From Flaviflexus massiliensis (GTDB lineage: Bacteria > Actinomycetota > Actinomycetes > Actinomycetales > Actinomycetaceae), in NCBI RefSeq assembly GCF_001375495.1, contig NZ_LN831058.1, positions 1,136,768 through 1,200,767 on the forward strand: a stretch of 64,000 nt of DNA, given 5' to 3'. Position 1 is the first letter of the stretch. The number at the start of each line of letters is the position of its first letter. Made by a program: the position numbers and the translations under genes. Of the stretch, positions 25,348 through 30,147 are shown one piece after another. The notes below the pieces were generated by a model that was not told the origin of the DNA, did no database searches, and saw nothing but the letters and a program-made list of their open reading frames with translations.

Positions 25348-26127
25348 GTGGATTACGTCGATCACGAGGCTGTTGTTGCGGTGTACGTTGCCGGTTCGAG
25401 TGTCACTGGGGAAGCAGATCCTCATTCCGATCTCGATATCTATGTGCTGACCGATGGGCAAATTGACCTGTCCTGGCGTGAACAACTCATCGGCCCCCGC
25501 TTACCGCCCAGATATTCACTGGCCCCGGGCCACTTTGGTGATGGGGATGCGTGGGAGACAGACGCAGGAAAATTCGACGTGATGTTCTGGGAAGTGTCAG
25601 ACACGATCGAGAACCTGCGAAGCATCCTTGACCACCATGTCCCACGACTGGGGTACACCACCGCGTTCTGGCACACCGTCCGCACCTGGCAAGAGCGCGG
25701 GCGCTCCGGGCGAAGCCCGGAGAAGCTGGCGGAACTGGAAGAACTTGCTGGTCGCGACTATCCGGACGCATTGGCACGAGCAATCGTGGATCACAATGCC
25801 GTACTCCTGCGTGGCGTGATGTTTTCCTTGGAGGAGCAACTCTCCGCAGCACAGGTGCGCCAGGATCCCGTTTCCATCCAGCATCGCACAACCGCCATCC
25901 TCGCAAGCTGGTTCGACATCGTCTTCGCTGTCAATAGGCGCACCCACCCGGGGGAGAAGAGGCTACTGAACCACCTGAAGAAACTACCCTCCCAGCCGCG
26001 CGATGCTGATCCAATGATCAGGGAGCTAGTCGCGAAACCCGACCGAGCAACAGAAACGTGCCGCCAGCTTCTTGACCAGCTATTCGACTGGCTCAGGGCA
26101 GAGGGATATCTACCGTCAACCGGGTAA
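25348..26127 (+). CDS. Nucleotidyltransferase-fold protein with DUF4037-like C-terminus
   Basis: A 259-residue cytosolic protein. The N-terminus has the minimal nucleotidyltransferase motif VAGSSVTGEADPHSDLDIYV, with the G-S-x(9)-D-x-D catalytic arrangement, and a third acidic residue probably in KFDVMFWE. The rest is helical, with ILASWFDIVFAVNRRTHPGE and LKKLPSQPRD as in DUF4037 proteins. Such proteins are predicted to transfer nucleotides to small molecules or proteins; the target is unknown. It starts with GTG, has no partner gene and faces the hydrolase gene. Confidence 0.7.
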   Translation: MDYVDHEAVVAVYVAGSSVTGEADPHSDLDIYVLTDGQIDLSWREQLIGPRLPPRYSLAPGHFGDGDAWETDAGKFDVMFWEVSDTIENLRSILDHHVPRLGYTTAFWHTVRTWQERGRSGRSPEKLAELEELAGRDYPDALARAIVDHNAVLLRGVMFSLEEQLSAAQVRQDPVSIQHRTTAILASWFDIVFAVNRRTHPGEKRLLNHLKKLPSQPRDADPMIRELVAKPDRATETCRQLLDQLFDWLRAEGYLPSTG

Positions 26128-26239
26128 GGTCCCGCGATGAATTAACCGATTAGACACGTCGGGGTTCCAGTTGTGGAACTGTTGAAATCGAGTGATGCGA
26201 CACCCGAATGTTTAACGGGAGCCAGGGCTCTAGCCGGTG

Positions 26240-27169
26240 TTACTGGTAGAGATTGAGTAGGAATACGACCTGGTCGTCAAGAGCCTGCTGAATGACCTCG
26301 TTGCTGCCGTGAATGGTGAGGCCGTGGCCCGCCTCGTATTCGGTGAGGAGGAAGGGTTTGCGGGCCTTGTTGAGGCGTTTGGCGAGGTTCTCGCCATCGT
26401 CCTTCAGCAGGTCATCGCTTCCCGTTTGAATGAACACGGGCGGCATCTTCTTCACGAGTGCCAGATCGTAGGCGGGGCTGGCGAGCGGCTGGATCCGTGA
26501 TTCCGGATCCGGGAAGTACGCATCCGCAGTGAAGGTCACGATCTTGGCGTAGAGCCGGTGGAGGAAACCGTCCTGCTCATCGTCGCCCTGCTGCTCTGCG
26601 ATCGGGTTGCGGTTCGGGCGGCTCACGTCCGTCACGGGAGTGGTTGCGATCAGTCCTGCCAGTCCCATTCGCGTCTCGTGTGCCTGCTGGGCGACGTTGA
26701 GGGCGAGCTTCGCTCCCGTTCCCGTGCCGCCAACGGTGATCCGTTCGGGGTCCCATCCGTACCGGTCGGCATTTGCTCGGGCCCACTGGAGCACGTCAAA
26801 GCAGTCCTGCTCGGTCGTGGGGAACGTGACCTGGGGTGCGGCACGGAAGTGGGGAGTGAGAACGATGGCTCCGGTTTCGGATGCGAGGTAGCGGCTCACG
26901 TGCTCATCTTCCCGGACTGCTCTGCCGATCATGCCGCCACCGTGAAACTGAATGTGAAGGGGAGGGCGAGAATGTTCGTCACCGGATAGTGGAGCGATGC
27001 CGCGGGAAAGATACACGAGTGTGCTCATCGGCCCCGACCGCGTGGGGACGGTGAGCGTGGTTTCGTCAACCTGGTGGGTGGTGAGTGGGAAGGATGCAGC
27101 GCCGGTCATACGGCTACGAGTTTGGACGGACCACGCCAAAATCCAGCGGTCTGGTCGAAACTCGTTCAT
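26240..27169 (-). CDS. HSL-type alpha/beta hydrolase-fold protein lacking the nucleophile serine
   Basis: A 309-residue alpha/beta-hydrolase of the hormone-sensitive-lipase group. The oxyanion motif IQFHGGGMIG, the acid region FIQTGSDDLLKDDGENLAKR and the histidine region YEAGHGLTIHG are all present. At the nucleophile elbow the usual G-D/E-S-A-G is replaced by GGTGTGAKLAL (codons GGC ACG GGA ACG GGA), so the serine position is glycine. The protein may be a non-catalytic binding protein, or one of the neighbouring threonines may have taken over. It is transcribed on the minus strand downstream of coaA with a 122-bp gap. Confidence 0.8.
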   Translation of the reverse strand: MNEFRPDRWILAWSVQTRSRMTGAASFPLTTHQVDETTLTVPTRSGPMSTLVYLSRGIAPLSGDEHSRPPLHIQFHGGGMIGRAVREDEHVSRYLASETGAIVLTPHFRAAPQVTFPTTEQDCFDVLQWARANADRYGWDPERITVGGTGTGAKLALNVAQQAHETRMGLAGLIATTPVTDVSRPNRNPIAEQQGDDEQDGFLHRLYAKIVTFTADAYFPDPESRIQPLASPAYDLALVKKMPPVFIQTGSDDLLKDDGENLAKRLNKARKPFLLTEYEAGHGLTIHGSNEVIQQALDDQVVFLLNLYQ

Positions 27170-27291
27170 CCTACCTCCCTCACCTAGCGCCCTGTTTATG
27201 GCCAGCCGACGGGCCTACCACGACAGGTGAGCCACGCTAATAATTCTGTCACGAATCCCTGGGCTTAACCGTGAAGCTTAGCGGTGCGCTA

Positions 27292-28245
27292 TCAGCTTTT
27301 TCGCAGGTAAACCGATTCCATCCGGTGATTCTCGCCCTTGCGGAGGATGACGGTTGCGCGGGAGCGGGTGGGCTCGACGTTGATGGAGAGGTTGGGGGCG
27401 TTAACGGTCGACCAGATCTTGTTCGCAATCTCTTTGGCTTGCTCGACGGACAGGTCGGCATAGCGGGAGAAATAGGACTGTGGATTGACGAACGCGGTCT
27501 GCTGCAGTTTGAGGAAACGCTTGACGTACCAGGAACGAATATCGTCGATATCGGCATCGACATAGATGGAGAAGTCGAAGTAGTCCGAGACTGCGGACAG
27601 TTGGCCGGTGGCATCGGGGCGGGGCGCCTGCAGCACGTTGAGGCCCTCGACAATGACAATGTCGCAGGCCTGCACCTGCTGCACGCGGTCGTCAACAATG
27701 TCGTAGGTGACGTGATCGTAATAGGGTACTTCTTGCGGGAAGCGGCCGGCCTTGACTGCCCTCATGAAGCGCAGGAGGGCGCGCCGATCGTACGATTCGG
27801 GAAAGCCCTTCCGGTTCATGATGCCGCGCTTTTCGAGGACGGCATTGGGGAACAGGAAACCGTCCGTAGTGACGAGCTCGACCTTGGGGGTGGAGGGCCA
27901 GCGTTGGAGGAGGCGCTGCAGGAGACGAGCTACGGAGGACTTGCCGACGGCAACGGACCCGGCAATCGCGATAACGAAAGGCGTGTGTTCTTCCGTGGTC
28001 TTGAGGAAGTCACTGACCCTCACGTGCCTTCTCAGTGCGGACTCGACATGCATCTGGATCAGAGCGGACAGCGGCCGGTACACGGCATCCACCTCCGCCA
28101 TATCGATCGGGTCACCGAGGGACGACAGTTCGGTCACTTCGTGTGGAGTCAGCGGCAGAGGTGTGCTGGTTGCCAGTGACTCCCAGTGATCCCGCGTAAG
28201 ATACAGGAAAGGATCCAGCGGGTTCGTAGCCGGGAATTGGGTCAT
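27292..28245 (-). CDS. coaA: Pantothenate kinase, type I
   Basis: Catalyses the first step of coenzyme A synthesis. The P-loop GSVAVGKSSVARLLQRLL is at about residues 96-113. It is followed by ELVTTDGFLFPNAVLEKRGI, MNRKGFPESYDRRALLRF and VEGLNVLQ, the hallmark segments of the CoaA (PanK-I) family. The length of 317 residues is normal. It is divergent from glmS across 51 bp, so the two promoters must overlap. Confidence 0.97.
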   Translation of the reverse strand: MTQFPATNPLDPFLYLTRDHWESLATSTPLPLTPHEVTELSSLGDPIDMAEVDAVYRPLSALIQMHVESALRRHVRVSDFLKTTEEHTPFVIAIAGSVAVGKSSVARLLQRLLQRWPSTPKVELVTTDGFLFPNAVLEKRGIMNRKGFPESYDRRALLRFMRAVKAGRFPQEVPYYDHVTYDIVDDRVQQVQACDIVIVEGLNVLQAPRPDATGQLSAVSDYFDFSIYVDADIDDIRSWYVKRFLKLQQTAFVNPQSYFSRYADLSVEQAKEIANKIWSTVNAPNLSINVEPTRSRATVILRKGENHRMESVYLRKS

Positions 28246-28296
28246 GTTCTATAGTTTGTCATCTCGTCACCAAATCATCTGCGAGGAGCTAGAAGT

Positions 28297-30147
28297 ATGT
28301 GCGGAATAGTCGGATATGTTGGGGCAGAAAACTCAACGCGTGCAGTTGACGTTGTTCTCGAGGGCCTGTCACGGCTCGAATATCGGGGATACGATTCGGC
28401 CGGTGTTGCCGTGACAACCGGGACAATATCCCAGGTCAAGAGGGCTGGTAAGCTCCAGAACCTCCTCGATGAGCTCGCCAGCAACCCGCTCCCGAACTCC
28501 GCCACCTCGATTGGGCACACCCGCTGGACAACTCACGGCGGACCGACGGATGAGAATGCTCACCCCCACCTCTCCTTCGACGGATCGATCTCCCTCGTGC
28601 ACAACGGCATCATCGAAAACCATGCCGAACTCGCTCGTGAACTTGCCGAGCAGGGCATCGAACGCGTCACCCAGACCGACACGGAAGTTGTCGCCCACCA
28701 CCTCGCCCTCTCCTACAAGAAGGAGGGCGACCTGACCAAGGCACTGCTCGCGACCGTGGCCGAGCTCGAAGGCTCATTCACGATCGTTGCCATCGCGGCA
28801 GACGCACCGGGCACGGTTGTGGCCGCCCGCCGCAACTCGCCCCTCGTTGTTGGTCTGGGCGATGGTGAGAACTTCGTCGGATCCGACGTGGCAGCATTCG
28901 TGGGGCAGACGAAGCGCGCGATCGAAATGGGACAGGACGAGCTCGTCACCATCACACCTGACTCCGTCACGATCCAGACCTTCGAGGGTGAACCCGTCGA
29001 ACGCGACGAGTTCGAGATCAACTGGAACGCCGAAGCCGCGGTGAAGGGCGGATTCAACACGTTCATGGAGAAAGAAATCCACGACCAGCCCTCCGCCGTG
29101 CGCGACACGCTGCTGGGCCGCATGAGCGAATCCGGTTCCCTCATGCTCGACGAACTCCGCATCGACGAATCGATCCTCCGCAGGATCGACAAGATCATCG
29201 TCGTTGCCTGCGGCACGGCAGCCTACGCCGGCCACGTCGCCAAGTACGCGATCGAACACTGGTGCCGGATCCCGGTCGAAGTGGAGCTCGCCCACGAATT
29301 CCGCTATCGCGACCCCGTCGTATCCGAAAAGACCCTGGTCGTTGCCATCACCCAGTCCGGTGAAACGATGGATACGCTCATGGCGGTCCGTCACGCCCGC
29401 GACCAAGGCGCAAAGGTCCTTGCCATCGTCAACACGCACGGCTCCACCATCGCCCGCGAATCCGATGCCGTCCTCTACACGCATGCGGGACCGGAGGTTG
29501 CTGTCGCGTCAACAAAGGCCTTCGTCGCGCAGATCACCGCCACATACCTCCTGGGCCTCTACCTGGCCCAGCTGCGAGGCAACAAGTACTCGGACGAGGT
29601 CATCACCTACCTGGATGAGCTCATGGCCATGCCCGACAAGATCACTGCCGTCATCTCCCAAGAAGACGAGATCAAGGCGCTCGTTGCCAGCATGAAGGAC
29701 GTCAAGACCGTTCTCTTCCTCGGCCGCCACGTCGGATACCCCGTCGCTCTCGAAGGAGCACTCAAGCTTAAGGAGCTCGCCTACATTCACGCGGAAGGCT
29801 TCGCGGCCGGCGAGCTCAAGCACGGCCCCATCGCCCTCGTGGAAGAAGACCAGCCCGTCTTCTTCATCGTCCCAACCCCGCGCAGGCCAGTCCTGCACGC
29901 CAAGGTCCTCTCGAACCTTCAGGAAGTGAAGGCCAGGGGTGCGCGCGTCCTCTGTATCGCCGAAGAAGGAGATACCGCGGTAGCGGAATACGCGGACACG
30001 GTGATCCGCATCCCCGAGACCCCGACGCTCCTTCATCCTCTCGTCTCGGTCGTTCCGCTCCAGATCTTCGCCTGCGCACTCGCAACCGAGAAGGGCCTGG
30101 ACGTGGATCAGCCGAGGAACCTCGCCAAGTCCGTCACCGTGGAGTAA
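28297..30147 (+). CDS. glmS: Glutamine-fructose-6-phosphate aminotransferase (isomerizing)
   Basis: Makes glucosamine-6-phosphate from fructose-6-phosphate and glutamine, the entry to amino-sugar and peptidoglycan synthesis. The N-terminal glutaminase begins MCGIVGYVGAENSTRAVDVV with the nucleophile Cys at 2, and GHTRWTTHGGPTDENAHPH follows. Two SIS domains contain VACGTAAYAGHVAKYAIEHW and GRHVGYPVALEGALKLKELA. The C-terminus is DVDQPRNLAKSVTVE. A GAGGAG ribosome-binding site precedes the ATG. It leads a run with the nnrD/E fusion, alr and tsaE. I see no glmS ribozyme upstream; there are only 51 bases. Confidence 0.98.
   Translation: MCGIVGYVGAENSTRAVDVVLEGLSRLEYRGYDSAGVAVTTGTISQVKRAGKLQNLLDELASNPLPNSATSIGHTRWTTHGGPTDENAHPHLSFDGSISLVHNGIIENHAELARELAEQGIERVTQTDTEVVAHHLALSYKKEGDLTKALLATVAELEGSFTIVAIAADAPGTVVAARRNSPLVVGLGDGENFVGSDVAAFVGQTKRAIEMGQDELVTITPDSVTIQTFEGEPVERDEFEINWNAEAAVKGGFNTFMEKEIHDQPSAVRDTLLGRMSESGSLMLDELRIDESILRRIDKIIVVACGTAAYAGHVAKYAIEHWCRIPVEVELAHEFRYRDPVVSEKTLVVAITQSGETMDTLMAVRHARDQGAKVLAIVNTHGSTIARESDAVLYTHAGPEVAVASTKAFVAQITATYLLGLYLAQLRGNKYSDEVITYLDELMAMPDKITAVISQEDEIKALVASMKDVKTVLFLGRHVGYPVALEGALKLKELAYIHAEGFAAGELKHGPIALVEEDQPVFFIVPTPRRPVLHAKVLSNLQEVKARGARVLCIAEEGDTAVAEYADTVIRIPETPTLLHPLVSVVPLQIFACALATEKGLDVDQPRNLAKSVTVE

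Follow-up and report, generated by a model that had tools for sequence, protein, structure and literature searches.

We report that a gene of Flaviflexus massiliensis encodes a hydrolase-fold protein of the hormone-sensitive lipase (HSL) type in which glycine stands at the position of the nucleophile serine. On the basis of sequence comparison and of analogy with a plant receptor, we consider it likely (probability roughly 0.6) that this protein descends from an actinobacterial HSL-type esterase and no longer hydrolyses esters, its pocket having been kept for binding a small ligand, linked to signalling or to a scaffolding role. The gene lies in a 64,000-nt stretch of the forward strand (NZ_LN831058.1, assembly GCF_001375495.1, positions 1,136,768–1,200,767), which we term the window; we denote the product of the minus-strand open reading frame at 26240–27169 the window protein. 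The features discussed below are as follows.

26240–27169, minus strand: putative HSL-type alpha/beta-hydrolase pseudoenzyme, 309 amino acids (open reading frame; PF07859 profile match)
26933–26944, minus strand: oxyanion-hole motif HGGG, residues 76–79 (sequence; kept in all five orthologues)
26849–26851, minus strand: His107, Asp in the nearest Ser-bearing homologues (alignment)
26714–26728, minus strand: nucleophile elbow G148-T-G-T-G152 (sequence and codons)
26720–26722, minus strand: Gly150 (GGA), nucleophile position (alignment to homologues and solved structures)
26411–26413, minus strand: Asp253, catalytic acid position (conserved among the orthologues)
26324–26326, minus strand: His282, catalytic base position (variable among the orthologues)
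27292–28245, minus strand: coaA, type I pantothenate kinase (TIGR00554, 427.6 bits against a cut-off of 235)

The window protein belongs to the HSL-type hydrolase fold family, as indicated both by its profile score and by its HGGG motif. A Pfam profile search matched it to PF07859 (Abhydrolase_3) with 142.9 bits (E = 1.6e-41; curated cut-off 25), and a phmmer search of solved structures returned HSL-family esterases, the best being 2yh2 at 1.9e-24. The best NCBIfam model, LipP1 (NF058653), scored 117.7 bits, under its curated cut-off of 350, and membership of LipP1 was therefore rejected. An AlphaFold2 model built from three sequences (the window protein, L049 and L050) had a mean pLDDT of 47.8 and was set aside for fold search and pocket analysis. 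A profile search of the genome found the window protein to be its only PF07859 match; the genome thus offers no active paralogue of that family to which it could be a silent partner.

With the bacterial HSL (family IV) esterases of PF07859, the window protein shares the fold, the HGGG motif, the catalytic Asp and His and the glycines of the elbow; it differs from them in the absence of the nucleophile serine. The phmmer alignments pair Gly150 with the nucleophile serine of 2yh2 and 1jji, and Asp253 with the acid residue of the solved HSL-family esterases. From V146, the elbow stretch reads V-G-G-T-G-T-G-A-K (GTT GGC GGC ACG GGA ACG GGA GCG AAG). The initial annotation, which had described an HSL-type hydrolase with glycine at the nucleophile position, an elbow of G-T-G-T-G in place of G-x-S-x-G, and a retained HGGG motif, acidic residue and histidine, is thus borne out: two members of the triad of an active HSL-type serine esterase are present (Asp253 and His282) and the GxSxG serine is not. 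Covalent-serine catalysis would accordingly be impossible for the window protein unless another residue substitutes, and the elbow offers no conserved candidate.

To place this change, we compared the window protein with its relatives. Hydrolase matches occur in five of the six genomes of the genus, that of the window included, and none was found in the sixth (G005). The orthologues in G001, G002, G003 and G004 are 50–52% identical to the window protein by BLASTP (52–59% over aligned residues). A family-level search gave some match at E 0.001 in 154 of 213 genomes, the best beyond the genus reaching 33–34% identity at about 1e-24, and searches of the order and class added further Ser-bearing relatives (77 of 396 genomes at 1e-20, 40 of 394 at 1e-35). 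A plasmid search yielded 575 records, every one below 60% identity, with 28–32% among the 10 matches listed. The residue alignment consists of 72 rows: besides the five orthologues, it takes in the homologues with a returned locus, a subset of all matches; after removal of one duplicate, 66 distinct rows form the non-orthologous comparison set.

At the nucleophile position, the window protein and the G001, G003 and G004 orthologues carry Gly (codons GGA, GGC, GGT and GGT, respectively) and the G002 orthologue carries Ser (AGC), while the non-orthologous set has 65 Ser and a single Gly, so that by homology the window protein has lost a catalytic residue. The catalytic His is kept in the window protein, G001 and G002 and replaced by Ser in G003 and by Gly in G004; it is His in 65 of the 66 comparison rows, the remaining row not covering the site. 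The catalytic Asp is present in all five orthologues and in 63 comparison rows (two have Glu and one is uncovered). The earlier statement that only the serine had been lost therefore holds for the window protein and fails for G003 and G004, and the suggested check of whether Gly is fixed gives a divided answer, with Gly in four of the five orthologues and Ser at the same position in G002. Because the G002 orthologue retains Ser, His and Asp, it may be an active esterase, and absence of catalysis need not extend to the whole orthologue group.

The orthologues also share changes outside the triad. Position 107 is His in all five, Asp in all seven of the nearest Ser-bearing homologues and His in none of the 66 comparison rows; it is one of 18 positions, including D7, R8 and W13, that are identical across the orthologues and absent from those seven homologues. 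The nearest relative outside the genus, L050, comes from a record titled Mycobacterium sp. MBM and is 40% identical to the window protein. It has the REDEH and HAAPQV motifs in common with the five orthologues and differs from them in its Ser-bearing elbow, GASAG, and in the Asp at position 107. No coaA was recognised by eye among the open reading frames of the 12.9 kb of L050. The one non-orthologous protein with Gly at the nucleophile position, L020 (G026, same family but a different genus), is a distant HSL-type protein with the elbow region VGGAGAGGG. Of the 18 matches in its genus, the elbow could be read in 17; L020 alone has Gly there and the other 16 have Ser, so the substitution looks like a lone recent change.

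The retention of residues around the missing serine raises an alternative, which we regard as unlikely, in which the protein is still catalytic: His282 and Asp253 would activate water or abstract a proton while the HGGG loop polarises a carbonyl. Some cofactor-free alpha/beta-hydrolase dioxygenases work through a His–Asp pair, the three elements concerned are intact in the window protein and in G001, and His107 is a residue newly fixed in the five orthologues. The replacement of the catalytic His in G003 and G004 argues against this, since His–Asp chemistry cannot then be common to the four Gly-bearing proteins unless another residue took over.

Phylogenetic analysis indicates that the history of the serine was not simple. 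In the hydrolase tree, the five orthologues form one clade (support 100/100) with L050 as sister (support 99–100 / 96). The rpoB tree, which covers 11 of 13 genomes (G110, with a read-through frame, and G213 were left out), has the topology ((window, G001), (G002, (G003, G004))). A clade of the four Gly-bearing genomes is rejected on these rpoB data (AU p 0.0009). A tree of coaA, glmS and the DedA gene recovers the same topology, with an AU p of 0.057 for a clade of these four; the hydrolase tree alone does not separate one loss from two, its values being 0.193 for the four Gly rows and 0.187 for G002, G003 and G004 together. As G002 is nested among the Gly genomes in the rpoB tree, the nucleophile codon changed at least twice: Ser would either have been lost twice, or have been lost once and then regained in G002.

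The gene has remained under selection, and its reading frame is unbroken in each of the five genomes, with amino-acid identities of 52–80%. For G003 and G004, both without Ser and His, the hydrolase dN/dS is 0.126 (NG86; bootstrap 0.09–0.18), as against 0.097 for coaA, 0.075 for glmS and 0.074 for the DedA gene, all of these values and those that follow being rough because dS is near or above 1 (about 1.1 for this pair). For the window and G001, it is 0.266 (bootstrap 0.18–0.39), above that of the neighbours (coaA 0.122, glmS 0.087, DedA 0.156), indicating weaker constraint in the window's branch. On these rough estimates, the hydrolase is under purifying selection despite the loss of triad residues, though less so than its neighbours, and maintenance by selection after that loss is clearer for G003–G004 than for window–G001. 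Together with Gly in four of the five orthologues and the loss of His in two, this continued selection supports the earlier proposal of a pseudo-enzyme, and analogy makes ligand binding by the window protein plausible.

Somewhat less probable than serine-free catalysis is that the gene is decaying, a dispensable esterase adrift. The piecemeal loss of triad residues, the faster evolution of the hydrolase relative to its neighbours, the variation in length after residue 183 and the lack of a copy in G005 are all consistent with decay; against it stand the five open frames at the identities given above and the dN/dS of 0.126 in a pair that, by parsimony, diverged after both Ser and His were gone. 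The G001 orthologue (L004) is 33 residues longer in all than the window protein, mostly through Ser/Pro/Gly-rich inserts beyond residue 183, at about alignment columns 189–245. The G004 orthologue (L039/L040) is split in a linear reading because the G004 contig begins inside the gene.

The hydrolase gene occupies a conserved position. In all five genomes that have it, coaA lies upstream on the same strand, separated by 122 bases in the window, 271 in G001, 11 in G002, 24 in G003 and about 30 in G004 (counted from open reading frame starts as listed, the G004 figure being reckoned by hand); in the window, glmS points away from coaA in divergent orientation. In G005 (L105, 7467–9450), which stands next to the clade with the hydrolase, coaA directly borders the DedA gene with no hydrolase between them, forming an empty site. 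A scan of 26100–28400 found no sigma-70-type promoter match and four terminator-like sites, where 1.5 would be expected (sd 1.2). The minus-strand interval from coaA to the hydrolase contains no such site, which lends weak support to co-transcription of the two genes. It is solely the neighbouring gene and the gene order that suggest a tie of the hydrolase to CoA metabolism. A precedent for CoA binding was considered in AF-Est2, which carries CoA at its active site, and was rejected: the paper describing it places AF-Est2 in a different Pfam family, alpha/beta hydrolase 6, so the precedent is not transferable to the window protein (PMC4861933).

The closest functional parallel to a non-hydrolytic HSL-type protein is GID1, the plant gibberellin receptor, which is considered HSL-derived and acts as a receptor without enzyme activity, having lost its His and holding its ligand with the retained Ser and Asp (PMC3531792). 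Set against that description, the window protein is alike, by analogy, as a probable HSL-derived non-enzyme; the Gly-bearing orthologues differ in having lost Ser, with or without His, whereas GID1 lost His and kept Ser. For a non-hydrolytic binding protein, the path may have begun with the gain of a Ser-bearing esterase gene beside coaA in the ancestor of the five genomes after their split from G005, unless the gene was instead lost from G005. The pocket would then have been remodelled, His107 replacing Asp and an N-terminal RPDRW segment becoming fixed; ester hydrolysis would have ceased to matter, and Ser, then His, would have been lost. By this analogy, a small ligand with an acyl or carboxyl group most likely binds in the retained pocket, and the bound or empty state of that pocket would be passed to a partner protein in the manner of GID1. 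With three triad states among the five orthologues of a single locus, the transition from esterase to binding protein, a step so far known mainly from GID1, would be open to a direct test.

A bolder and doubtful version holds that the nucleophile was lost twice in parallel within the genus, by the same Ser-to-Gly change, towards a bacterial equivalent of GID1. The product would be a receptor without catalytic activity, co-transcribed with pantothenate kinase, and its signal CoA or a metabolite of the acyl or pantothenate type. If true, the genus would hold the full series, with the triad intact in G002, Ser lost in the window protein and G001, and both Ser and His lost in G003 and G004. Among the titles and abstract openings listed, which cover part of the matching papers and few subscription journals, we found no bacterial HSL-family pseudoenzyme with a Ser-to-Gly elbow, and those on Flaviflexus and esterases dealt with other matters only; the main text of a pseudoenzyme review makes no mention of hydrolase, esterase or lipase (PMC10211241). 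Bacterial HSL-family pseudoenzymes seem, on this sample, little described.

The remaining explanations concern the elbow itself. The threonine nucleophile raised in the initial annotation found no support and is very improbable: Thr149 and Thr151 do flank Gly150, but the other four orthologues have Gly at position 149, and position 151 varies (T, T, S, A and T in the window protein, G001, G003, G004 and G002, respectively). That this one codon was misread in sequencing or assembly can practically be dismissed, since Gly recurs at this position, through GGC or GGT codons, in three more genomes against Ser in nearly all other homologues.

On its other side, the hydrolase gene of the window adjoins a nucleotidyltransferase-fold gene (25348–26127, plus strand; PF18765/PF01909) with a weak match to the MntA antitoxin, under that model's cut-off, and a similar nucleotidyltransferase-like open reading frame lies beside the G001 hydrolase (L004, 150–935, plus strand).
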